Source: Methylococcales bacterium (lineage in GTDB: Bacteria; Pseudomonadota; Gammaproteobacteria; Methylococcales; Methylomonadaceae). Taken from it: a stretch of DNA of 64,000 bases. Location: contig JAURYI010000058.1 of NCBI GenBank assembly GCA_030654015.1, positions 1 to 64,000 on the forward strand, in the 5' to 3' direction. The translations under genes and the position numbers were made by a program. The notes under the pieces are model-generated. The model was not told the origin of the DNA and did not search any database. It saw only the letters and a program-made list of their open reading frames with translations. Position 1 is the stretch's first letter, and every line of letters starts with the position of its first letter. Positions 40,404-54,019 of the stretch are shown in pieces.

Positions 40404-41618
40404 TTACGTCCGATATTCGGCATTAATTTTTACATAGTCGTAGGAAAAATCGCAGGTCAAAACCTCTTGGCTTGCTGTGCCGCGTCCTAATTTAACCGTC
40501 ACGGTGATTTCCTGTTGATTCATCACCGCTTGTCCCGCTTCTTCGGTGTAGTCATCGGCACAACCGCCGTTTCTGACGATACACACGTCACCCAGATAAA
40601 GCTGCACGTCTTCCAGTACCATATTTTCCACGCCCGCACGTCCGACAGCGGCAAGAATCCGCCCCCAATTCGGGTCACTGGCAAAAAATGCGGTTTTTAC
40701 CAGTGGCGAATGGGCGATAGTTTTAGCAACGCGCACCGCTTCTTCATCGTTGCTGGCATCTGATACTACAATGCGGATAAGTTTGGTCGCGCCTTCGCCG
40801 TCTCTGATAATCAGTTCAGCGAGTTGTTTACACACGCTCATCAGTGCGTCGGCAAATACAGGGTAATGTTCACTGTCGGCAGTGATTTCAGGCGCGACAC
40901 TGCAACCACTCGCCATAATCACACAGGCATCATTAGTGGAGGTATCGCCATCAACAGTAATACGATTAAACGATTGTTCAACGGCTAACGCTAAACACTG
41001 TTGCAACAGCGGCTGTTGAATTTTTGCATCGGTGGCAATAAAACCGAGCATGGTCGCCATATTGGGCTGAATCATGCCCGCGCCTTTGGAGATGCCATTA
41101 AAGGTGATGGTTTCACCAGCGATAGAAATGGTTTTAGTCACGCCTTTAGGAAACGTGTCGGTAGTCATAATCGCTTTGGCGGCATTTGCCCAGTTGTCAC
41201 TGCTAAGCTGAGCAATGGCGGCAGGTAACACGGCGGTAATTTTAGCAACGGGTAATAATTGCCCGATGACACCTGTAGAAAACGGTAACACCTGATTGGG
41301 TGCGTTACCCGCTAATTTAGCTAATTCCTCACAAGAGCTTAAAGCCGCCTGCATTCCCAGTTCGCCCGTTCCTGCATTGGCATTGCCTGAGTTGATTAAA
41401 AACCAGCGCGGCGCGTGTGCCAGATTGGCTTTTGCAACATGAACAGGTGCGGCACAAAACGCATTTTGGGTGAATACCCCTGCACAGGTCGCGCCTTCGA
41501 CTGCGTGCAGCAATAAAATATCATCTCTGGCGGTTTGCTTAATACCCGCATTAGTTGTGCCTAGGGTAATGCCTGTAATACTGGGCATTATCGGGAAATC
41601 GCATTGTCCTACTGCCAT
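40404..41618 (-). CDS. argJ: Bifunctional glutamate N-acetyltransferase / amino-acid acetyltransferase
   Basis: ArgJ transfers the acetyl group from N-acetylornithine to glutamate and in its bifunctional form also uses acetyl-CoA. The self-cleavage site is in GAGMIQPNMATMLGFIATDA, where the Thr of ATML becomes the new N-terminal nucleophile. TGVIGQLLPVAKI, DGDTSTNDACVIMASG and DGEGATKLIRIVV are conserved. It is 404 residues, full length. The argJ-mutT order is shared with other gammaproteobacteria, though the usual upstream secA is not here. Confidence 0.97.
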   Translation of the reverse strand: MAVGQCDFPIMPSITGITLGTTNAGIKQTARDDILLLHAVEGATCAGVFTQNAFCAAPVHVAKANLAHAPRWFLINSGNANAGTGELGMQAALSSCEELAKLAGNAPNQVLPFSTGVIGQLLPVAKITAVLPAAIAQLSSDNWANAAKAIMTTDTFPKGVTKTISIAGETITFNGISKGAGMIQPNMATMLGFIATDAKIQQPLLQQCLALAVEQSFNRITVDGDTSTNDACVIMASGCSVAPEITADSEHYPVFADALMSVCKQLAELIIRDGEGATKLIRIVVSDASNDEEAVRVAKTIAHSPLVKTAFFASDPNWGRILAAVGRAGVENMVLEDVQLYLGDVCIVRNGGCADDYTEEAGQAVMNQQEITVTVKLGRGTASQEVLTCDFSYDYVKINAEYRT

Positions 41619-41646
41619 TCGTTAATCCTCGTTTGGTTAATTATTT

Positions 41647-41761
41647 GTAGGTCAGAATAAGTCTACCCAAGCGTAGCGCAGGGTAGGCGTTTCTGACAAT
41701 TCCGTAGTTTGTCGGAAACACCTGTTTTCGCTTGCACTCAAACAGGTTTATTCTGACCTAC
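41647..41761. repeat. 115-bp dispersed repeat, copy 2 with intact terminal inverted repeats
   Basis: Begins gtaggtcagaataag and ends ttattctgacctac, giving a 14-base terminal inverted repeat. An inner pair aacacctgttttc/aaacaggttt forms another hairpin. It is about 85% similar by eye to the copy at 39308-39420. The two copies flank the mutT-argJ pair. Confidence 0.9.
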
Positions 41762-41768
41762 AGGAGTA

Positions 41769-42911
41769 TTAAATTTTAAAAAATATCAGCACGTTATCAA
41801 TTCGTTCAACGTCTGTTTTCATGCGTTCGCATTGGCATTTAAGCCAAGCTAACTGCTCGGTTTGTTGGCTCAGGGCAAACGGAAAAATAACTTCTATTTC
41901 TATTTGCCCATCTAAATAGTGAATTTTAAAGTCTTCTATCAGCGGCTTTATATCGGCTAAATAATCATCCAGTAACAACTTTACATCACGGCGGCACAGC
42001 GGGCTTTTTTCAAACAAACCTTCGTCGTTTTCAGCATCAACATGAACCAATACATCCATCACATCATCAAAACGGCTGATTAATTCATCACGCACTGCGT
42101 CACTGATACTATGCCCTTCCGATACGGTAATGCGCGGGTCAACAATAATATGCGCATCAATCAACGCATCTTCGCCCATTTGCCGTGAGCGTAATAAATG
42201 AATACCTTCCACGCCTTCAATAGCTAAAATAACAGCCCGAATTTCAGAGAGTTTGCGGGGCGGTAAGGCGGTATCGACCAGTTCTTTGATGCCTTGCATA
42301 ATCAGATTGGCACCGATTTTAACCACCATCAACGCCACCACAATGGCGGCAATCGCATCGGCAAGCGGATAACCCAACAGCACTGCACCGATACCAAACA
42401 ACACCACCACGGAGGAAATCGCATCACTGCGTTGATGCCACGCATTGGCTAATAACAGCTTAGAGCGGGTGACTTTGGCAATACGTTTGGTGTAATGATA
42501 CAGCCATTCATTGACTAAAATGGAGACCACGACCACGCCCAAACTCATCACGTCAGGCGTTGCTAACTGTTCAGGTTGTTCCATGCGTTTCATCACTGAC
42601 CACGCAATACCGCCGCCAATCACCAATAAACTGAGTCCCAAAATAACAGTGGCAATGGTTTCAAAGCGTCGATGCCCGTAAGGATGCTCGTGATCCGCCT
42701 CCCGACTGCCTAATCGAACCGCGACAATCACCAGAAAATCGCTTAATAAATCGGATAAGGAATGCACACCATCGGCAATCAACGCCGATGACTGCCATAA
42801 CACACCAAAGCCGATTTTAAGTGCGGTTTGCGATACATTAATCGCCGCGCCGACATAACTGGCGCGGGCTTTTAATTTTCGCGCCTGCTCCATTTCACTA
42901 AGATCAGACAT
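41769..42911 (-). CDS. Cation diffusion facilitator family metal transporter
   Basis: CDF proteins export Zn, Fe, Co, Cd or Mn by proton exchange. The 380-residue protein has six membrane helices with metal-site residues in ALIADGVHSLSDLLSDF (helix 2) and NAWHQRSDAISS (helix 5). The cytosolic C-terminal domain has EGVEGIHLLRSRQMG and DAHIIVDPRITVSEGHSISD. It carries an extra C-terminal stretch of about 80 residues compared with FieF. The metal is not determinable. Its start overlaps the TusA-like stop by one base. Confidence 0.92.
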   Translation of the reverse strand: MSDLSEMEQARKLKARASYVGAAINVSQTALKIGFGVLWQSSALIADGVHSLSDLLSDFLVIVAVRLGSREADHEHPYGHRRFETIATVILGLSLLVIGGGIAWSVMKRMEQPEQLATPDVMSLGVVVVSILVNEWLYHYTKRIAKVTRSKLLLANAWHQRSDAISSVVVLFGIGAVLLGYPLADAIAAIVVALMVVKIGANLIMQGIKELVDTALPPRKLSEIRAVILAIEGVEGIHLLRSRQMGEDALIDAHIIVDPRITVSEGHSISDAVRDELISRFDDVMDVLVHVDAENDEGLFEKSPLCRRDVKLLLDDYLADIKPLIEDFKIHYLDGQIEIEVIFPFALSQQTEQLAWLKCQCERMKTDVERIDNVLIFFKI

Positions 42912-43141
42912 TACGAGCCCACTTCGATAACAATAATATATTCATAATCGTCAGTTGCCGTCGTTTCCAGCACTTTATGCCCATTAATACGACACCATGC
43001 GGGAATATCCTGCATCACGCCTGAATCAGTGCAAATGACTTCCAACTGATCACCGACTTGCAGTTGCTTGATTTTATCTTGGGTACGAATGACAGGCAGC
43101 GGACACAATAACCGCCGCGCATTGAGAGTTTCTTTCATCAT
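42911..43141 (-). CDS. TusA-family sulfurtransferase-like protein
   Basis: TusA-type proteins carry persulfide sulfur on a conserved cysteine. Here LCPLPVIRTQDKIKQLQVGDQLEV contains the CPxP motif with the active cysteine; at 76 residues it is the usual size. The later SGVMQDIPAWCRINGHKVLE segment is typical. It could serve tRNA thiolation or general sulfur relay; I cannot tell TusA from its paralogues. There are two adjacent ATG codons; the second (at 43138) may be the start. It is coupled to the downstream CDF gene. Confidence 0.88.
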   Translation of the reverse strand: MMKETLNARRLLCPLPVIRTQDKIKQLQVGDQLEVICTDSGVMQDIPAWCRINGHKVLETTATDDYEYIIVIEVGS

Positions 43142-43258
43142 AACTTATAGGGATTAGCGTGAGTGAGTCACATTTTAACGCACACGCAGGCAAAAATGTG
43201 AACACAACAACGTAATAATGACGCGCCCGACATTTTTATTCAGGCGAAAGCAGCTTTA

Positions 43259-44938
43259 TTAATCCACCTGATAAGCAACACAAAATTGAATATCGCCTTC
43301 TTTACGACGCAATAAACCTTTCAAACCCAATGCTGAAATCGCCGATTTTATCGTTGCCGACTTTTCATAATTGTCCTGAATTTTTCGCGCCTCATCATGA
43401 TCCGCACGATACATTTGTTGAGCTAATTTATGTAAGCCATGCGCCAAATTCAACGTAATAGACAAGGACACGGTGTTATCGGCAATCTCACCGAATGCCG
43501 ATGATAGTGCGGCTCTTGTGATACGGACATTAATTTTTTCCTTTGTGCCATTCAAATCCGCTTGCTGTATATAATAAGTAAATAAACAATTATCAACATA
43601 TAATATGGATGGTTCAATCGACCAGCGAAAAAATATATCCTGCTGGTTTTCAATTTTAAAATCAGTTTGTGTAAATAAAACAGCCAATGCGATTAATTCA
43701 TTTTGCAACACGCTATTGTCTTTTATTTCAATCCAGCCATAAGGATGAAAAATAATATCTTCGCTGTGAGAGCTAAATATAAAGCCGCGATTATGTGCCG
43801 CCAAACCCCATAAAATAGCCTGTTGCCTTGCTGTTAAACACAAATCAATTATTTTTTCCTTACCCAATGTCCCTGCATATAATGGTTTATCAGTATGTTG
43901 TAATAAGGTTATCCCATATTTATGCGGCTTAAATAAATAACCGCTGGTAAAACTATCGGATAACACCATCAATTCCTTTTTTAACGCAGCTCTATCCTTA
44001 TTAAAATCGTTAACCAACGCTTCGATATACGCCATTTTACCATCGGCTGTTATGCCTTTTTCTATTTCATCCAACGAAAACCAAACCAAACGATTATCGG
44101 CTGTTATTTTATCGTGTAAATGAATATAACCGGCCAGCGTCAACTTAATATGAAAAACATCCAGATAATATTCAGTAAACGCATGATTAGGCGCAGAACC
44201 CTGAACCTGCCGATACGGCTTTAAACTACGCCACAAGGTAAATGTATAATGAGTATCAAAAATTAATCCCGCTTCTTCCTTTAATTCCCGTTTTAAAGTC
44301 TCAGGCAATACGGCTTTAATATCACTATTACTGGACTGCACAGCCTGCAAACACCGATTTTTATTATCAGTAAAACCGACAATATCACGCTGATTTAACC
44401 GCCCGCCAACCAAACCATAATCCCCTGCTGTTTTATCAAAGCGTTTATGGGTATCTTCCCGTTGATAAAATAAAATCTTATCATTCAGTTTAATAATACT
44501 CCACGCCACATAAATATAACGAATCGGCGGCGCGTCACCACTCGCATGATAGTCAACCCGATTAGATTCAATATATCTTAATAAATCCCGCTGTGCATTT
44601 TTCTTATCATCCGCAATCCCTTGAGTATTCCAAAAATTATCCGCCAACAACCGAGATTCTTTATCACTCATTGCCGTTAATACCGACAACGCTAATAACT
44701 GCGCAGGAAAAGAAATAAAACACCATTCGCCTTTTTGCAAAGAATCAGTATTTAATACTGCCAAAGTATCCAGCAAGTTTTCAATTAAATTAACAGTATT
44801 TTCAGCAACAGCCTGATTAACTTGTTCTGAACACAGCACGTTAATTAAATCCTCACGTTTAACCGCGTAAAAATCGCCTTCTTCTTCGGCGTAGCGAGGT
44901 AAATAAGTAATAAGGGTTTTAATTAGCTGTGCCGACAT
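43259..44938 (-). CDS. Large Nudix-domain protein with split Nudix box
   Basis: The 559-residue protein has an N-terminal helical region (1-140), a Nudix-like domain (about 140-310) and a C-terminal region (about 320-559) that I do not recognise. The Nudix box is present but split: GLVGGRLNQRD is separated by about 30 extra residues from LPETLKRELKEEAGL, which keeps the REUxEExGU core. It could hydrolyse a nucleoside diphosphate derivative; the substrate is unknown. It follows the PIN-domain gene by 12 bases and is the last gene of the accessory operon with the kinase and REC-HEPN genes. Close members may be rare. Confidence 0.7.
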   Translation of the reverse strand: MSAQLIKTLITYLPRYAEEEGDFYAVKREDLINVLCSEQVNQAVAENTVNLIENLLDTLAVLNTDSLQKGEWCFISFPAQLLALSVLTAMSDKESRLLADNFWNTQGIADDKKNAQRDLLRYIESNRVDYHASGDAPPIRYIYVAWSIIKLNDKILFYQREDTHKRFDKTAGDYGLVGGRLNQRDIVGFTDNKNRCLQAVQSSNSDIKAVLPETLKRELKEEAGLIFDTHYTFTLWRSLKPYRQVQGSAPNHAFTEYYLDVFHIKLTLAGYIHLHDKITADNRLVWFSLDEIEKGITADGKMAYIEALVNDFNKDRAALKKELMVLSDSFTSGYLFKPHKYGITLLQHTDKPLYAGTLGKEKIIDLCLTARQQAILWGLAAHNRGFIFSSHSEDIIFHPYGWIEIKDNSVLQNELIALAVLFTQTDFKIENQQDIFFRWSIEPSILYVDNCLFTYYIQQADLNGTKEKINVRITRAALSSAFGEIADNTVSLSITLNLAHGLHKLAQQMYRADHDEARKIQDNYEKSATIKSAISALGLKGLLRRKEGDIQFCVAYQVD

Positions 44939-44950
44939 TATTTATAACCT

Positions 44951-45460
44951 TTATTTTGCATTTTTCTCTACGTCACTAATGATTTCAGCTAAAAAAGCAG
45001 CGCGAATGTGTAAACTGGTTTGAGTTGGAATAGCGCGTAATAATTCCAATACTTCCGATTTTGAACGGGTTTGTTGACGGATAGCGCGGACTAAAACACC
45101 AAGCGTACCATGCGCAGTTACACCGAGGTTTTTTGCCGCAAGTTTGGCGGCGGTATCATCCGTCAAAAACAAGCTATTTTTAAATTCTAAGCATAAATGC
45201 AACGCTTCCTGCTCACCTGCGTGTAAAGTATAAAATGGGGTTAGTGCATTGACTTGTGGAGAAAAGTATTCAGCGCGGTGACGAATTAAATTCACTTTTG
45301 TATGAAGCAAGGCTTGCGGACGATGGTGTTGCACTTCATGCCAAACTGTTTCTGGAACAATTACTATGTCAAAATCAGAAATAAGTTCAAGACTATTTAA
45401 TTCATCTAAATGAATAATGGGCCCCGCATCAGCAATAACAATTGTTTTAGTCTTTTCCAT
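44951..45460 (-). CDS. DUF3368 PIN-like toxin (VapC-type)
   Basis: The protein of about 169 residues has the DUF3368/PIN-like pattern: VIADAGPIIHLDEL with the first acidic residue, VIVPETVWHEVQ, LHAGEQEALHLCLEF and LFLTDDTAAKLAAKNLGVTAHGTLGVLVRAI. PIN toxins are Mg-dependent RNases, often cutting tRNA or rRNA. I start at MEKTKTIV; the antitoxin gene overlaps its 5' end by 14 bases. The toxin is downstream of its presumed antitoxin, the usual order. Confidence 0.85.
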   Translation of the reverse strand: MEKTKTIVIADAGPIIHLDELNSLELISDFDIVIVPETVWHEVQHHRPQALLHTKVNLIRHRAEYFSPQVNALTPFYTLHAGEQEALHLCLEFKNSLFLTDDTAAKLAAKNLGVTAHGTLGVLVRAIRQQTRSKSEVLELLRAIPTQTSLHIRAAFLAEIISDVEKNAK

Positions 45461-45644
45461 GCAAGCCCCAGTCAATATCTTCTCGAATCAACTGCTCATT
45501 AATAATTTGTTGGTGTGATTCTAAATAGCGGCGCATGGCTTCTATAATTAGCGCATCCATATTAACAATCCAACCTTGCTCAACCATATTTTGTGCTTGC
45601 TGCCAAAGTTGATCGGGTATTTCAGTTTTTACAAGTGTAGTCAT
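45447..45644 (-). CDS. CopG/ribbon-helix-helix-like antitoxin
   Basis: The 65-residue protein reads MTTLVKTEIPDQLWQQAQNMVEQGWIVNMDALIIEAMRRYLESH, a short strand plus two helices as in ribbon-helix-helix DNA binders. A charged C-terminal tail (LIREDIDWGLHGKD) follows that could occupy the toxin active site. It overlaps the PIN gene and lies 11 bases after the REC-HEPN gene, so the pair may be transcribed from the upstream kinase operon promoter as well as its own. Confidence 0.8.
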   Translation of the reverse strand: MTTLVKTEIPDQLWQQAQNMVEQGWIVNMDALIIEAMRRYLESHQQIINEQLIREDIDWGLHGKD

Positions 45645-45655
45645 GATAATTAGCC

Positions 45656-46993
45656 TTATGAAAAACTACGGCTATAAATATGCCGTGCTAATTCAAATAG
45701 ATAAGGTGCTTTTTTACGGTAATCAAACTCTTCAAACGTTATTTCTACTTTTCCCATTCTTACATCTACACGAGGATAAGAGTTAATTAGCCAAAACATT
45801 TGATAAAGTAATTTATCCAATAATACTTTGTCTTTTCTAAGCTCTGAGTTACTTTCCTGAATATTATTGGCTAATGCAGGGAAGCGAAACGCATCTTTAA
45901 TAATTTTTTCGCTGGCTACCTTGTTTTGAAGGTTGCAATAAGCCTTTTTAATGTCCAGAGCAATTAACTTATTTTTATTTTGATTTTCAAAAGTTTCTTT
46001 TGTTAAATTCTCACCAGAAAACAGTTTAAATAGTATTTCTTCGTAAGTTTTCTTTACCTCGTAAAAATTAAACATAATTCGCATATTAATCATAAATAAA
46101 TAAGCGATTATTTGTTCATCAACGGCATTAAATACGGTTGAATTATGGGTTATCCAGTTACGAGTGCTTTTCATAATCCACGCTAAACCTCTTATTTTTT
46201 TCGGTTCTGTTGCTTCCCATTCGTGCGTTAATGTTCTGATAAAGAGTTTGTACAAGGTCGATTTATCAACTGGTTCACGCAAGGGTAAAAAATTGGCTAA
46301 CACGTCTAAATAATTATGGCTATCTTCAAGGCTAATTTTCTTTTCAGATTCTTCAATAAAGCTATTAAATAACAGTTTATTTTCAGCATTAATGAAGTTT
46401 TTTAAACTGTGACAAGCTTCAATAATTCCACGCCTTAATATTGCATAAGAGGATTGTTGTGCTGTTAGCCAATCTCTTAATTTTATATAATCTGCATCTA
46501 TTTTTTCAAAAACAGTGACTTTCGGCATATAAATTTCAGTACACTTATTTTCAAATCCTTTTACTGTGCTAGTTTCCGCAGTCATAAAGCACATTATCTC
46601 GGCAGGTATACCTAAATGAATTAAATCATTAAAAATATAAAATCCTCCATTTTCGTGAAATTTTCTTTTATCGGTGTAATATTCTGGAATATCTTTGTCT
46701 AAATCAACGTGTTCGCCATTGTCTAAACGAACGTCAATAATAATGGCATCAATTTCATTGAGAATGGCATGATTTTCTTTAAATTCTTCATAATCAAAAT
46801 AATTACGGCATAAATAAATGGTATGCAGACTTTTTTGTTGTGTGCAAAATTCATTTAAATCAGATGGCTTCGTTTTCAGGCTAAATAAGTCATTATCCCA
46901 CGCATCAAAACTTAATAAATTACCAAACATTTGATTTAAAATATTTTTTCCTGCTTGCAAACCGCCAAAGTCTTCAATCCAAAGTATATTCAT
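45656..46993 (-). CDS. Response-regulator-like protein: receiver domain fused to a HEPN-motif region
   Basis: The 445-residue protein begins with a receiver-like domain. ILWIEDFGG supplies the acidic pair, D87 in AIIIDVRLDNG is the likely phospho-acceptor, T138 is in MCFMTAET and K164 in VTVFEK, so the catalytic set is complete. Residues 45-80 and 100-120 hold extra insertions. The rest (about 175-445) is helical and carries R278-N279-xxx-H283 in KSTRNWITHNS, the HEPN RNxxxH motif of many RNases. No DNA-binding output domain is seen. It lies three bases from a soluble TPR histidine kinase gene. A phosphorylation-controlled RNase is the simplest reading (inference). The DNA is visibly A+T-rich. 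Confidence 0.72.
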   Translation of the reverse strand: MNILWIEDFGGLQAGKNILNQMFGNLLSFDAWDNDLFSLKTKPSDLNEFCTQQKSLHTIYLCRNYFDYEEFKENHAILNEIDAIIIDVRLDNGEHVDLDKDIPEYYTDKRKFHENGGFYIFNDLIHLGIPAEIMCFMTAETSTVKGFENKCTEIYMPKVTVFEKIDADYIKLRDWLTAQQSSYAILRRGIIEACHSLKNFINAENKLLFNSFIEESEKKISLEDSHNYLDVLANFLPLREPVDKSTLYKLFIRTLTHEWEATEPKKIRGLAWIMKSTRNWITHNSTVFNAVDEQIIAYLFMINMRIMFNFYEVKKTYEEILFKLFSGENLTKETFENQNKNKLIALDIKKAYCNLQNKVASEKIIKDAFRFPALANNIQESNSELRKDKVLLDKLLYQMFWLINSYPRVDVRMGKVEITFEEFDYRKKAPYLFELARHIYSRSFS

Positions 46994-46996
46994 ATT

Positions 46997-48406
46997 TTAG
47001 CCTTCTAATAAGTTTTTATGGAGTTTTAATTCTGCGCTAAACAGTTGTTCATTTGCAGTGCAATTAAATTGAGCGTGTTCGCCTAATAATTCAATCAGGC
47101 GATTAATAAAAGCAAGTCCTTTATGTGTGCCAGCTAGTTGGCTGTTAGCATTAGCTTTGCAAGCATTGCTGACGCTGAAAATGTAATATTCTGCATCTAT
47201 ATACCAATTAATTTGAATTTTTCCTGTGCCGCCCCAGTATTTTAAAGCATTAAGGATTAATTCTGAGCTGATAGCAAACATCAGTGAGAATTTAATTTGA
47301 TTTGCGCCAAATTGCGCGGTACTTTTTTCAATATTGACTTCAAGCGCGGTTATGGATTGAAGCCAATGATAGAACTTTTCTACATCTTTTTGATTTACGT
47401 CCAACGGTAAAACCTGTTCAATAAAGGCTTTGCGGGTGGGTTTAATTAATTCGCCTTGATTGTTTATCAGTTTGCGTAAACCTGTGGCATCCTCCATAAA
47501 GATGATACGGTTGAGTGATTGGCGCAAAGCTGAGGCAATAAACCATTCAGGCGTTGCATCACCTGCGTTGTCTTGTTGCCAAGCGCGTTTAAATTCTTCG
47601 GTATCGTAAATGGATTGTTTAAAGGTATCTATTAAACAATCGGTTAAGGTGATGGTTGAGAATAAAGCGGCAATTTCGTTAATCGCTTCATAATGTTTTT
47701 GATTTTTTTCGTAGTCTTCGCTACCTAATAAACGAATGGCTTGTCTGAGAGATTCGGGGGCGGTTGCGAGGGCATTACGCATGGTGTGGGTGAAGAAAGA
47801 GAGCATTTCTTTTTCTTTTTCGTGTGCTATTTTATTAGCTTTTTTTGTTTCTTCTATTTGTAACTCAATCTTTTCTGCATTATAAATTGATTTTAAATAA
47901 TCTTTTTTATACTCTATTTCTATAGTGTCTTCCATGCTATCATCATTATAAATATAAAATGCTTTATTAATATATTCTTCTGCTTTTTCATATTTGTTAT
48001 TTGAAACAGAGACGTTACTTGCCAAAATATAAAATAGCTTTTTATGCTCTTCTGAATCAGAAAACTTAGCAAGAAGATAGTATTCGTTATTTTCGGATTC
48101 TTCACAATCATTGTTACTTAATTTATTAGCTATATTAAAATCTTCGTTAGCTTTTGTAAAGTCACGCAGATTTAGATAACAGTTTCCACGCTTTATATAA
48201 GCTTCGCAATTATTAGGCTCTTGTTCAATAGCCTTATTAAAGCAATACAAAGCAGTTTTCCACTCTTCTTGCTCATAAAAATTTAATCCAAGCTCATAAT
48301 TATCAAAATCACAATTTGTTTCGATACTTTTTACTTTCCCTTTTTCATCCAAATTAACCTGTATATAAGGTTTTGTCGCTGTTTTTTCTTTTTCATGATT
48401 TTTCAT
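46997..48406 (-). CDS. Soluble TPR-containing histidine kinase-like protein
   Basis: The 469-residue protein has no membrane segment. TPR-like repeats cover residues about 35-155 (YELGLNFYEQEEWKTALYCF, AYIKRGNCYLNLRDFTKANE). A coiled segment follows, then a phospho-acceptor-like helix with H207 in LSFFTHTMRNALA. The GHKL ATPase region has an N-box (SSELILNALKYWG, N386) and a G2-like loop (GTHKGLAFINRLIELLGE). The G1 box is odd: YIFSVSNACKAN in place of the usual DxGxG. It may be an active kinase of a divergent class or a degenerate one. The start follows an AGGAAC site. It is the partner of the REC-HEPN gene three bases away. Confidence 0.75.
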   Translation of the reverse strand: MKNHEKEKTATKPYIQVNLDEKGKVKSIETNCDFDNYELGLNFYEQEEWKTALYCFNKAIEQEPNNCEAYIKRGNCYLNLRDFTKANEDFNIANKLSNNDCEESENNEYYLLAKFSDSEEHKKLFYILASNVSVSNNKYEKAEEYINKAFYIYNDDSMEDTIEIEYKKDYLKSIYNAEKIELQIEETKKANKIAHEKEKEMLSFFTHTMRNALATAPESLRQAIRLLGSEDYEKNQKHYEAINEIAALFSTITLTDCLIDTFKQSIYDTEEFKRAWQQDNAGDATPEWFIASALRQSLNRIIFMEDATGLRKLINNQGELIKPTRKAFIEQVLPLDVNQKDVEKFYHWLQSITALEVNIEKSTAQFGANQIKFSLMFAISSELILNALKYWGGTGKIQINWYIDAEYYIFSVSNACKANANSQLAGTHKGLAFINRLIELLGEHAQFNCTANEQLFSAELKLHKNLLEG

Positions 48407-48459
48407 GATTTTGTTCCTATTTTATAAAAACGCTAAAAACATTATAACACCGCATAATA

Positions 48460-48933
48460 TTAGAACCGATGCCATCCAGAACCACCGCATTTACGACAAT
48501 CAACTTCAAAATCTCCGCTGCCGTCACATTTACTGCATGGCACAGTAAATGTTCCTTTACCACTGCATCTTCGGCATTCAACTTCTTTGATGTAATTTCC
48601 TGTCCCATTGCAACGATTACATGATTTTGAATTGCGCGTTCCAGTACTCTGACAGGATAAACAAGGCTTTGCTGGTAATTTGAAAATTCCAGTCCCCTCA
48701 CAATTTCGACACGTCCCCGTAAAAGTACCCGTACTATCGCATTTTTTGCAATCAAACGTCTTTTTTCCTGAGCCATTACAACTAAAGCACGTTCCATAGC
48801 TGTTAATTGGGCTAATGCAGTTTTTGAACGTAGTTCTGACACGATTTTGGTCACGTTTAGCGCGGTGGCTGTAATTGTTTCTTTCAAATAACGCGCCAAG
48901 TAACGTAAAAAAAAGTCCCATAAAAAGCCTCAT
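48460..48933 (-). CDS. Small protein with eight DnaJ-type CxxCxxxG motifs
   Basis: After a short hydrophobic N-terminus (MRLFMGLFFTLLGALF, possibly a membrane anchor), the 157-residue protein consists of eight CxxCxxxG motifs: CFSCNGSG, CKKCDSTG, CRNCEGTG, CLSCQSTG, CNRCNGTG, CRRCSGKG, CSKCDGSG and CRKCGGSG. DnaJ has four such motifs binding two zincs, so this is a doubled zinc-finger array without a J domain or substrate-binding domain. It may act as a zinc-dependent chaperone or binding module. It lies 53 bases upstream of the TPR kinase gene on the same strand, so it may belong to that operon. Confidence 0.8.
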   Translation of the reverse strand: MRLFMGLFFTLLGALFERNNYSHRAKRDQNRVRTTFKNCISPINSYGTCFSCNGSGKKTFDCKKCDSTGTFTGTCRNCEGTGIFKLPAKPCLSCQSTGTRNSKSCNRCNGTGNYIKEVECRRCSGKGTFTVPCSKCDGSGDFEVDCRKCGGSGWHRF

Positions 48934-49048
48934 GATTGATTGCGGATGTTACGCACCGATTTTTTAAAATCAGTGGGTTACAATTTTATTCAGTTTTAAT
49001 CCCTTCGGCACAGGAAAATGTTTCAGAGGGATTACTGCCGTTACCACT

Positions 49049-49162
49049 TTATAGAATAGAAAGTGCCACCCAAATTCCAATAAAAATATATAAAGGTGCG
49101 CCAATGTCGGCTATAACGTTTGCTACCGTAAAAACTGCTAGTACGCCTACTACGATTTTCAT
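49049..49162 (-). CDS. Small membrane peptide, translationally coupled (37 residues)
   Basis: Too short for the ORF track. It begins ATG at 49160-49162 overlapping the TGA of the ParB-like gene (TGATG), with AAGGAAAC just upstream. The peptide MKIVVGVLAVFTVANVIADI... is a membrane-type sequence with one or two hydrophobic stretches and ends TAA at 49049-49051. The overlap and ribosome site support translation. It has no known family, and could be a toxin-like or regulatory peptide. Confidence 0.5.
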   Translation of the reverse strand: MKIVVGVLAVFTVANVIADIGAPLYIFIGIWVALSIL

Positions 49163-49680
49163 CAATGTTTCCTTGTTTGTTTTGAAGTTGGGTATAGCTT
49201 AGCCCTTTGTGTTTCGAGTCTAAACAGAGTGAATCGGTTGCGCTGGTCTTCGTCGGTTTCCAGCCACGCTTTATGCTGTTTGGCTATCGCTGAAAATAGC
49301 GGGGCTTTGGGTAAGCCTTGCAGACTCATTAGGTCGGTGACGCTGCGGGGTTTGCCTGTGTCTATTTTGCCGAATGCGGCTTCGTCTTCTATGCCTTTGA
49401 TGATGACGGTTTGAAAGGCTTTGCCTGTGTTGACACACGCGGTTAGGCGGTGTTGTCCATCGAGTAAGCGTCCCGATTTTGAAAAGGCGATGGTTTCGCC
49501 ATTGAGCATCCATTCATCATTTTTTAGTGCGGTGCTGAGCATTTTGACGTGCGCGGGTTTTAACGGGCGGTTGTCGTGGTTGGTGGTGGCTAGCAGATGT
49601 TTTGCCAGTTCGGGGGTGATTTGTGCCACGCCTGTTTGTATGCTGGTTGTTATGAATTCGATTGTGTCCATTTTCATCAC
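49162..49680 (-). CDS. ParB/Srx-fold-like phage-type protein, possibly truncated
   Basis: The 172-residue protein contains LNGETIAFSKSGRLLDGQHRLTACVNTGK and VIIKGIEDEAAFGKIDTGKPRSVTDLMSLQG, the ParB-N-terminal-like fold seen in many phage and island proteins. The nearest such proteins as I recall them are longer. The C-terminus here (RFTLFRLETQRAKLYPTSKQTRKH) does not look like a finished domain, so a truncation or frameshift is possible. It may be a mobile-element remnant beside the accessory operon. Confidence 0.7.
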   Translation of the reverse strand: MMKMDTIEFITTSIQTGVAQITPELAKHLLATTNHDNRPLKPAHVKMLSTALKNDEWMLNGETIAFSKSGRLLDGQHRLTACVNTGKAFQTVIIKGIEDEAAFGKIDTGKPRSVTDLMSLQGLPKAPLFSAIAKQHKAWLETDEDQRNRFTLFRLETQRAKLYPTSKQTRKH

Positions 49681-49957
49681 CCTGTGTTATTTGTTGTTTT
49701 CTCTGTTGTTGGCGATATTATAGGGCTGGCGTTATGGCTTGTAATGTGAGGGCTGTAGGAGATTTTTAGGGGTTTTCGGTGTTTGTGGTTGTGTTGTAAG
49801 TGGCTTTTGGTCTGGGCTTTAAGCGGGTTAATGGCTTTAAAATCAGTGCGTTGTTTGTGGGAAGGTTGTGGGAGGAATTTAAATCGTCTGCGGCTTTCTG
49901 TGTGTTGGTACGTTATGGTGCGATAATACGCGACCATTATTTTTATAGGATTACAGT

Positions 49958-50863
49958 ATGTGGTTTAAAAATCTGAGTATTTTTCGCTTAACGGAGGCGT
50001 TTACTTTATCGGCTGAGGAGTTGGAGGAAAAGCTGGAGGTGGTGGCGTTTCGTCCTTGTGGGTCGCATGAGGATTTTTCCTTGGGCTGGGTGTCGCCTGT
50101 CGGTAAGACTGCGCCGCTGGTGCATAGTGCGAACGGTTTTATGATGATTTGCACTAAGAAAGAGGAGCGGGTATTACCTGCATCGGTTTTAAATGAAATG
50201 ATGCTGGAAAAAATTGCTGAAACGGAAGAGGCAGAAGGGCGTAAATTATCCAAAAAAGAACGCACGGCGATTAAAGATGAGCTGATTTTTGAGTTGTTGC
50301 CGCGTGCGTTTACTTTTTCGCGCAAACTTTATGCGTATATTGATGTGCAGGGTGGTTTTTTGGTGGTGGATTCTGCGTCTGCCAATAAAGCAGAAGATTT
50401 GCTGAGTTTATTGCGTAAATGTTTGGGTTCGTTGCCCGCTGTGCCGCTGAATACCGTGGATAAACCGATTGCGACCATGACAGAGTGGTTGTTAACGCAA
50501 GAAACACCTAAGGATGTGACGATTGAGGATGAATGCGAGTTACGCTCTCCTGAGGAAGCGGGCGGGGTGATTCGTTGTAAACGTCATGATTTGTCGTTGC
50601 CTGAAATTAAAAATCATCTGGATATTGGCAAGCAGGTGATTAAACTGGCAATCAATTGGGAGGATCGCTTGAGCTTTATACTGGATGAGAATTTATCGGT
50701 TAAGCGTTTGAAATTTTTGGATTTGGTACAGGATCAGGTGACTGATACTAATGCAGATGATGAAGCGGCGCGATTTGATGTGAATTTTTCGATTATGTCG
50801 TTGGAATTGGCGAATTTTATTCCGCGTCTTTTAGAGATATTCGGTGGGGAACTGAAAGCATAA
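49958..50863 (+). CDS. rdgC: Recombination-associated protein RdgC
   Basis: RdgC is a ring-shaped DNA-binding protein that limits RecA activity. MWFKNLSIFRLTEAFTLSAEELEEKL, the FRPCGSHEDFSLGWVSPVG segment, ASANKAEDLLSLLRKCLGSLPAVPL, and GGVIRCKRHDLSLPEIKNHLDIGKQV match the family throughout. The length is 301 residues, complete. It is followed directly by a strong terminator and is convergent with the Lpp-like gene. Confidence 0.97.
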   Translation: MWFKNLSIFRLTEAFTLSAEELEEKLEVVAFRPCGSHEDFSLGWVSPVGKTAPLVHSANGFMMICTKKEERVLPASVLNEMMLEKIAETEEAEGRKLSKKERTAIKDELIFELLPRAFTFSRKLYAYIDVQGGFLVVDSASANKAEDLLSLLRKCLGSLPAVPLNTVDKPIATMTEWLLTQETPKDVTIEDECELRSPEEAGGVIRCKRHDLSLPEIKNHLDIGKQVIKLAINWEDRLSFILDENLSVKRLKFLDLVQDQVTDTNADDEAARFDVNFSIMSLELANFIPRLLEIFGGELKA

Positions 50864-50898
50864 AAAAAGCCCAGTGACTTTCGTCACTGGGCTTTTTC
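50863..50898 (+). terminator. Bidirectional terminator between rdgC and the Lpp-like gene
   Basis: Arms aaaagcccagtga and tcactgggctttt around a short loop, with an A run on one side and a T run on the other. It lies between convergent stop codons, so it can serve both genes. This is the clearest intrinsic terminator in the window. Confidence 0.92.
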
Positions 50899-50919
50899 AT
50901 GCCGTTAAGCAATGAGAAA

Positions 50920-51198
50920 TTATTTTCTCATTGTTTTTGCGAACATTGCATCCAATTTGCTGTTAGTTTCTTGAGCATATTGAGCCGCACGGTTAGCAGC
51001 AGCTTCAGCAGAAGCAGCTTGAGCAGAAGCTGAATCAGCAGCTGATTTAGCAGATGCAGCGTCAGAAGAAGCTTGTGAAACTGAAGATTTCAAACCATCA
51101 ATTTGTGATTGTAAGTTAGCGATGTCGTCGTTAGTAGCACAACCAACAACTAAGCTAGCAACCATAGCGATCATAGTTAATTTTACGATTTTTTTCAT
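50920..51198 (-). CDS. lpp: Lpp/OprI-type murein lipoprotein
   Basis: The 92-residue protein has a lipoprotein signal ending in the lipobox LVVGC. An Ala/Ser-rich heptad-repeat coiled coil follows, continuing through SAKSAADSASAQAASAEAAANRAAQYAQ. It ends in a lysine (TMRK). Lpp attaches to peptidoglycan through its terminal lysine by L,D-transpeptidases. A gene for such an enzyme lies immediately upstream on the same strand, strongly supporting the pairing. The protein is longer than E. coli Lpp (58 mature residues), more like OprI. Confidence 0.88.
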   Translation of the reverse strand: MKKIVKLTMIAMVASLVVGCATNDDIANLQSQIDGLKSSVSQASSDAASAKSAADSASAQAASAEAAANRAAQYAQETNSKLDAMFAKTMRK

Positions 51199-51278
51199 TT
51201 TTATTTACCTTGTTTTTGAGAGTTATATGAACATAAAACTGGGATTAATTTACCACTATTTGCCGTATTTTTCCAATT

Positions 51279-52310
51279 TTATTTTATTTTTACTACTGTT
51301 CCCGTATCCAACCATTGGCTTAGATGATCGATTTGAGTGTTAGTCAAGGCGATACAACCATGCGTCCAGTCAAATGCTTGGTGAACTCTTTCGTCCCCCG
51401 CACCTATACCATGTATGCCTATTTGCCCACCTAATGGTGTATTTTGTGGCGGTATCTGGTTAGATTGATGCGCGGTAACAATGCTGTAATAGTCAGTTTG
51501 ACTAATTACACCACGCTTCAATGCGATTTCCGCATCTTGCGTAGACGGATAGGTTAAACCAAAAAATTTACGAAAATTACTTTTTTCGCCAACCCAGCCA
51601 ATTCTATAATTACCGTAGGGCGTAATATCATCACCACGATGCCCTTTTAAGCCTGCGCCTTTTCGCCCGATGGCAATGCCACTGAGCGTTTCCAGCGTCT
51701 GCTCACCTTGTTTTACTTCAATTTTATGTGCTTTGGTGTCCACTAACAACCAAATAGAGCTATCTGCATAACTCGGAACATGACTGCTTACACTCGCAGG
51801 TGTATTACTGCTCACAGTCGCAGGTTTATAAACACTCACATTCGCGGGTACATGACTGCTTACAGCCGCAGGTGCATAACTACTTACTACGCTCGCGGGT
51901 GTATGACTCATCACACTAGCAGGTTTATAAACACTTACATTCACGGGTGTATGACTGCTTACAGCCGCAGGTGCATAACTACTTACTACGCTTGCGGGTG
52001 TATTACTCATCACACTAGCAGGTTTATAACCGCTCACATTCGCGGGTACATGACTGCTTACAGCCGCAGGTGCATAACTGCTTACTACGCTCGCGGGTGT
52101 ATTACTCATCACACTAGCAGGTTTATAACCGCTCACACTCGCGGGTGCATGACTGCTTACAGTCGCAGGTTTATAACCGCTTACATTCGCAGGCGCGTAA
52201 TTACTGACACTCGCAGGTGTACGACCGAATAAATTTGCTGGAACACGGCTGTCCGCATTCACCGCAAAAGAGAAAAAACCACAACATAATAATATACAAA
52301 ATCGTAACAT
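51279..52310 (-). CDS. L,D-transpeptidase (YkuD) with a long 8-residue-repeat linker
   Basis: The 343-residue protein has a signal peptide (MLRFCILLCCGFFSFAVNADS). About 150 residues of repeats (about 31-180) of the unit S-x-[YHN]-x-P-A-x-V follow, then a YkuD catalytic domain (185-343). The active-site segment GIHGIGAGDERVHQAF then DWTHGCIALTN includes the catalytic cysteine in the HGC motif. The enzyme crosslinks peptidoglycan or attaches Lpp. The Pro/Ala/Ser-rich linker probably spans the periplasm. It faces an Lpp-like gene, its likely substrate. Confidence 0.93.
   Translation of the reverse strand: MLRFCILLCCGFFSFAVNADSRVPANLFGRTPASVSNYAPANVSGYKPATVSSHAPASVSGYKPASVMSNTPASVVSSYAPAAVSSHVPANVSGYKPASVMSNTPASVVSSYAPAAVSSHTPVNVSVYKPASVMSHTPASVVSSYAPAAVSSHVPANVSVYKPATVSSNTPASVSSHVPSYADSSIWLLVDTKAHKIEVKQGEQTLETLSGIAIGRKGAGLKGHRGDDITPYGNYRIGWVGEKSNFRKFFGLTYPSTQDAEIALKRGVISQTDYYSIVTAHQSNQIPPQNTPLGGQIGIHGIGAGDERVHQAFDWTHGCIALTNTQIDHLSQWLDTGTVVKIK
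51771..52220 (-). repeat. Tandem repeat array inside the L,D-transpeptidase gene
   Basis: The 24-base unit encodes SxYxPAxV. Four units (with one 9-residue unit) form a 33-residue higher-order repeat seen about three times (GYKPASVMSNTPASVVSSYA as its start). The copies are nearly identical in DNA, so recent expansion or gene-conversion-like exchange is likely. Confidence 0.93.
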
Positions 52311-52375
52311 AATTAAAATCTACACTGTAAAAGAGTTTTGGTGTACTTTATCCACCACGTTAATTGTCGCACTAA

Positions 52376-54019
<1,644 letters not shown>

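Follow-up and report, generated by a model that had tools for sequence, protein, structure and literature searches.

Detocs systems employ a separate receiver-type protein, DtcB. The Detocs family comprises three-gene systems, and its best-studied form has an ATP-degrading PNP effector (PMC11249213). Metal-independent RNase activity is one mark of the HEPN superfamily. HEPN domains are four-helix bundles in which an Rx4-6H motif lies at the end of helix-3 or the start of the next loop (PMC3710099), and the CBS-HEPN system DS-11 is an example in which a HEPN RNase serves as the effector (PMC13092281). In addition, the legend to Fig. 6F of the DefensePredictor study names TPR, HATPase and REC among predicted, unvalidated defence systems (PMC13092281).

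The locus described here lies in a 64,000-nucleotide stretch of a Methylococcales contig (the window). An earlier note, made from its sequence alone, proposed that a soluble TPR histidine kinase is paired with a receiver–HEPN protein; both open reading frames were found on the minus strand at 45656–48406, three bases apart (Table 1). The pair is probably an undescribed immune-type switch of methane-eating and sulphur bacteria, as judged from sequence. An immune two-component system in which exchangeable sensors gate a HEPN RNase, most likely directed against phages or other mobile elements, is the favoured reading, held with somewhat better than even confidence.

Table 1. Features of the kinase–receiver locus in the window.
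Feature	Position	Strand	Basis or remark
Soluble TPR histidine kinase, 469 aa	46997..48406	-	ORF; 3 bases upstream of receiver protein gene
Kinase, sensor part, residues ~1-195	48406-47822	-	
Kinase, core, residues ~196-469	47821-46997	-	
Predicted phospho-acceptor H207	47786..47788	-	Invariant in 51/51 homologous kinases
Receiver protein, 445 aa	45656..46993	-	ORF, alignment and predicted structure
Receiver protein, REC, residues 1-177			
Receiver protein, helical HEPN-like part, residues 178-330			
Receiver protein, variable C-terminal part, residues 331-445			
Predicted phospho-site D87	46733..46735	-	Kept in 59/60 homologues
RNWITH, R278-H283, HEPN-type Rx4H motif	46145..46162	-	C-terminal end of predicted helix 271-283
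Ribbon-helix-helix antitoxin-like gene, 65 aa	45447..45644	-	RHH_8, E 0.008, under Pfam cut-off
PIN/DUF3368 toxin-like gene	44951..45475	-	PADLOC PDC-S70, 4e-23; PIN_4 and DUF3368 weak
NUDIX-domain protein, 559 aa	43259..44938	-	NUDIX at 8e-5; downstream of pair
Block replaced as a unit between sister genomes	44933..49644	.	Flanks align to L156/L032; inside essentially unalignable (DNA)

A profile scan of genome contigs recovered 61 loci, mostly from Methylococcales and Beggiatoaceae/Thiotrichales, with a few labelled as cyanobacteria, Cloacimonadota or Lentisphaerae/Victivallales, these being MAG labels. Two of the entries, L033 and L157, duplicate each other, both being one stretch of a genome (G925) of the window's genus. 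Class-wide, the receiver protein is carried by 4 of 369 genomes, the window's own included; several genomes hold more than one copy, and that of the window holds one. A search of phage records and viral contigs found no relatives. In support of the pairing proposed in the earlier note, the two genes are conserved together: the kinase family is present in 56 of 60 receiver protein loci, nearly always directly upstream and in the same orientation. Of 54 pairs analysed, 15 share a 4-base overlap, and in most others the genes are no more than 12 bases apart. Furthermore, identities of the kinase core and of the effector correlate (r 0.75; 0 of 999 permutations).

The receiver half can be assigned with confidence. 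Residues E7, D8, D82 and K164 are invariant in 60 homologues, D87 is kept in all but one, and position 138 is Ser or Thr throughout, so that the acidic pair, phospho-Asp, Thr/Ser and Lys of a receiver site are all present. Identities in a 54-sequence alignment range from 21 to 85%, and by alignment the conservation of the receiver and HEPN-motif residues across homologues far exceeds chance. AlphaFold2 predicts a receiver fold followed by a helical bundle (pTM 0.89), and the only Foldseek matches of meaningful probability were to receivers (RssB REC, TM-score 0.65 by target length). The Pfam Response_reg model is matched by 5 of 54 relatives, at best at 1e-5, and the window protein has no credible match in Pfam or NCBIfam. 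The receiver identity of this half is thus confirmed by the predicted fold, in agreement with the full D8/D87/T138/K164 site described in the earlier note.

The partner is, as first described, a membrane-free kinase with TPRs (Pfam TPR_2 at 5e-11), in which the HATPase match is weak (0.06). Its predicted structure is TPR–DHp–HATPase (pTM 0.60), and Foldseek returned histidine kinase matches at E 3e-4. The motif residues H207 (in FFTHTMRN), E382, N386 and Y390 (in ELILNALKYW), G430 (in GTHKGLAF) and N414 are invariant in 50–51 homologous kinases, K389, also in ELILNALKYW, is nearly so, and the whole G426-x2-K-G430 of GTHKGLAF is invariant or nearly so; a phospho-acceptor His, an N-box and a G2-type box thus accompany the DHp and HATPase folds. 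The G1 box DxGxG, already noted to be degenerate, has Asn (N414) in place of Asp in 51 of 51 kinases and is therefore a fixed trait of the family. The residue following the phospho-acceptor is mostly non-acidic (Thr, Lys, Asn or Ser). Because of these two features autokinase activity is uncertain; it is plausible for the family, though atypical. The same two features would suit a kinase-like protein that acts as an ATP-dependent switch or scaffold and holds or releases the effector by binding, with no phosphorelay. That reading is unlikely, as H207 and the receiver residues E7, D8 and K164 are invariant and D87 is nearly so, a pattern most simply explained by phosphotransfer.

An ordinary two-component system with DNA-binding output was also considered and rejected. 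Neither window protein has a DNA-binding or other known output domain by Pfam, the lack of DNA-binding output agreeing with the earlier note, and no DNA-binding output stands among the Pfam families listed for 54 receiver protein relatives except in isolated weak matches.

After the receiver domain, helices are predicted at residues 182–204, 222–233, 244–261, 271–283 and 293–307 (AlphaFold2). The segment R278–H283 terminates the helix 271–283, a position that fits the description of HEPN domains in PMC3710099. In 60 homologues, R278, W280 and H283 are invariant and N279 is found in 58, giving an Rx4-6H motif with a polar residue after the Arg; the DNA scan patterns used for relatives included RNW and RRGII and excluded D8, D87, K164 and H283. 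Foldseek with the whole receiver protein gave no significant HEPN match (Cas13a and Csm6 only at E 1–3), a search in which the dominance of the receiver domain kept the helical half from being judged. When its profile is aligned with that of Swt1-type HEPN (E 0.007), W259 falls on the W of the Swt1 family and RNWxxH on its RNKWAH. Across comparisons, profile similarity of the helical half to Swt1-HEPN lies at E 0.005–0.018. Pairs of accepted HEPN families, scored in the same way, give 1e-4 to 0.023, but the kinase core, taken as an unrelated helical control, reached 0.009. None of 300 column shuffles reached the Swt1-HEPN score, and 2 of 200 did so with a larger Swt1 set. HEPN_Apea (PF18739) yielded no sequences for these comparisons, and HEPN_MAE_28990 only two. 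No model of Pfam, NCBIfam or PADLOC recognises the HEPN-like part.

From the motif position and the Swt1 profile alignment, HEPN is the best assignment for the helical half and a likely one, though the control also scored 0.009. Of the HEPN claim in the earlier note, the motif stands, invariant and at a helix end, whereas the fold does not have the backing of a significant structural match and the profile similarity is weak.

It has to be weighed whether the pair is instead a two-component system of regulatory kind, with an ANTAR-like or inactive HEPN output that binds RNA but leaves it uncut and so controls gene expression. The unproven HEPN fold leaves room for this, and two of the Foldseek matches are to Rv1626, a receiver protein with a helical output of RNA-binding type; these matches, however, are due to the receiver domain. 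A domain that only binds RNA would not need the invariant R278, W280 and H283, and the part after the receiver domain is approximately 270 residues long. No ANTAR match was found by Pfam in the window proteins or in 54 relatives, and swapping of sensors and loci, as set out below, is unusual for housekeeping regulation. Binding without cleavage is accordingly considered improbable, and a HEPN RNase output is preferred.

The sensor is swapped between kinases. There are 36 kinase pairs whose core identity is 80% or higher; in 31 of them the sensors are less than 45% identical and usually differ in length. For example, L036 and L041 share 96% identity in the core and 95% in the effector but only 28% in the sensor; a 4.2-kb stretch that starts within the kinase gene and takes in the NUDIX gene is 92% identical in DNA between them, and their sensors are unrelated. 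Similarly, the DNA similarity of the window to five other loci (L013, L014, L017, L158 and L180) ends at 47821–47868, 10–27 codons upstream of H207. The near-complete genomes that contain L189 and L191 show the same pattern (core 95%, sensor 34%), so sensor swapping is not only a MAG artefact.

Pfam matches in 61 kinases are to Sel1 (36), TPR_2 (15) and, in the sensor, N6_Mtase (5) and Methylase_S (3). The TPR sensing put forward in the earlier note is incomplete: TPRs, present in the window kinase, are one of several sensor types. Five kinases (L022, L033, L037, L039 and L047) have methyltransferase-type sensors. Between L032 and L033, cores are 92% and effectors 94% identical, whereas one sensor is TPR-like by sequence and the other N6-methyltransferase-like. 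The methyltransferase sensors retain motif I (DICCGxG) and have a changed motif IV (NLPF, EPPF, QPPF or SLPF), which suggests that they probably serve recognition rather than methylation.

Parts of the effector are exchanged as well. The window and L013 proteins are 68% identical in the receiver domain, 96% in the HEPN part and 97% at the C-terminus; between L014 and L017 the corresponding values are 94, 57 and 40%. By these alignments, the kinase core stays conserved while the sensor and the HEPN part recombine around it, each independently of the other.

At one site a whole block is replaced as well. The window is 93.6–93.7% identical to L156/L032 in the flanks at 40545–44932 and 49645–53665, and the 4.7 kb between them, which holds the kinase, the receiver protein and the toxin–antitoxin (TA) genes, aligns only in short stretches (236 bases at 71%; 55 bases at 89%). 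One edge of the block is the start of the NUDIX gene. At an edge of the block, 49162–49680 encodes a shortened copy (172 aa) of a protein of approximately 298 aa in a relative. Together, the swapping of sensors, effectors and loci supports a conflict-system pattern of evolution.

Two further genes of the window may be mentioned. Directly upstream of the kinase, 48460–48933 encodes a 157-aa protein with a DnaJ-type CXXCXGXG zinc finger, in which no J-domain match was found, and 51279–52310 encodes a protein with many PASVMSNTPASVV-like repeats followed by an apparent L,D-transpeptidase domain.

In 29 loci, the window included, the pair is followed by the NUDIX gene at a distance of 197 to 4338 bases, and in most of these the intervening space contains TA-like genes on the same strand. 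The types in this slot, mostly named by sequence inspection, are RHH/PIN, several VapBC, Phd, ParE-like, HigA-like and Uma2; the RHH antitoxin-like family of the window fills the same slot in L008, L015, L025, L041, L044 and L062. The NUDIX protein is present in 57 of 311 Methylococcales genomes, and the pair is upstream of it in 32 of 35 NUDIX loci that have at least 4 kb of upstream sequence. In the three exceptions, an N6-methylase/HsdS system occupies the slot (L164), TA-like genes stand beside housekeeping genes (L166), or the upstream 190-aa gene described below is present with a VapBC-like pair and a broken NUDIX gene (L190). The tight linkage of this protein of about 560 aa (window and L126–L155) is thus an observed one, and the protein may be a partner of the pair or just a fixed neighbour; Beggiatoaceae loci have the pair without it.

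Upstream of the kinase, 14 loci encode a conserved protein of approximately 190 aa (e.g. L027:5166-5804 and L008:7596-8159), for which Pfam gave no credible match and which is also found upstream of the restriction–modification (R-M) variant of the slot (L164:2865-3281). In L018, L041, L043, L062 and L064 the kinase is immediately preceded by E1/JAB genes, with Prok-E2_E or NYN genes in some. Three of these loci (L018, L043 and L064) have kinase N-termini with a different sensor, e.g. FHTVNNCLGVVDQYKTG, seemingly where an E1/JAB-type gene neighbours upstream, and a link between this type of sensor and that gene is possible. A PADLOC scan of 126 neighbour genes gave E1-E2 matches and one match each for RT and Cas1. 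As for the defence-gene neighbourhood that the earlier note wished to have checked, ubiquitin-like E1-E2-JAB, R-M and RT/Cas1 genes are nearby in some loci, which is not put forward as enrichment, and variable TA genes and the conserved NUDIX gene accompany it in Methylococcales.

Given that TA genes share the slot, that Methylomonas plasmid pUP202 (one plasmid) carries a copy and that the loci are exchanged between strains, the pair might not be a defence system but a selfish addiction or toxin–antitoxin-type element that persists on mobile loci and has the kinase for its antitoxin. Large, fast-diversifying sensors that include DNA-recognition modules would be unneeded for addiction, and this reading is given the lowest probability of the alternatives.

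With the composition, conservation, pairing, swapping and linkage observed at these loci, we infer intracellular sensing, a phosphorelay, an RNase output and a role in defence. In the preferred immune reading, the swappable N-terminal part of the soluble kinase would detect an intracellular sign of invasion. The conserved residues suggest that the ATPase core would then phosphorylate H207 and that the phosphoryl group would pass to D87 of the receiver. The receiver in turn may release or dimerise the HEPN-like domain, whose R278/H283 site would cut RNA and bring about cell arrest or death. In Methylococcales, the pair lies in a slot with varying toxin–antitoxin genes and the NUDIX gene last.

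A wider proposal, advanced tentatively and at slightly less than even confidence, is that these loci constitute an undescribed modular family of immune receptors. Unrelated sensors would be swapped onto a conserved kinase-core transmitter: arrays of TPR or Sel1 repeats in some cases, in others a DNA methyltransferase that is probably inactive and carries a target-recognition domain. Phosphorelay would couple this transmitter to HEPN RNase effectors, and recognition of invader proteins or foreign DNA marks would thereby lead to RNA cleavage. If true, two-component signalling, which is normally tied to transcription, would extend to the direct control of an RNase toxin. NLR-type immunity diversifies its sensors, and the exchange seen here would be a receptor-like analogue. 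Natural swaps, in which nearly the same core and effector carry a TPR or a methyltransferase sensor, offer ready-made pairs for identifying triggers.

Several described systems share parts with this one. The domain names TPR, HATPase and REC in the DefensePredictor legend are common to the pair, and as far as that legend goes the prediction or predictions may overlap with it or may be of another kind. Like HEPN RNase effectors of the Swt1/Abi2 and RiboL-PSP types, the receiver protein has an Rx4-6H motif with Asn after Arg at a helix end; unlike them, its HEPN-like part is fused to a phospho-receiver. Such a fusion was not found in PMC3710099, nor a receiver–HEPN pair in the literature searched, from which most subscription papers were absent. 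The methylase and specificity subunits of Type I and IIG R-M systems have domains similar to those that form the sensor of five kinases, but in the latter motif IV, (N/D)PP(Y/F), is altered and the output is a kinase core.

The closest likeness is to Detocs. Neither protein matched PADLOC 2023, a library that may not include Detocs, and the comparison is one of description rather than of DtcA, DtcB and DtcC sequences; by analogy the pair would work like Detocs, and identity with it is not claimed. Both have a receiver-fused effector partnered with a kinase, and both would deploy a receiver-linked killing effector in an immune role, the role of the present pair being the one proposed above. In contrast with the three genes of Detocs, there are two signalling genes here: the pair has no third partner in Beggiatoaceae and L028 loci, and in Methylococcales the gene conserved as a third member encodes the NUDIX protein. 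The pair further differs from Detocs in its HEPN-type effector and its interchangeable sensors.
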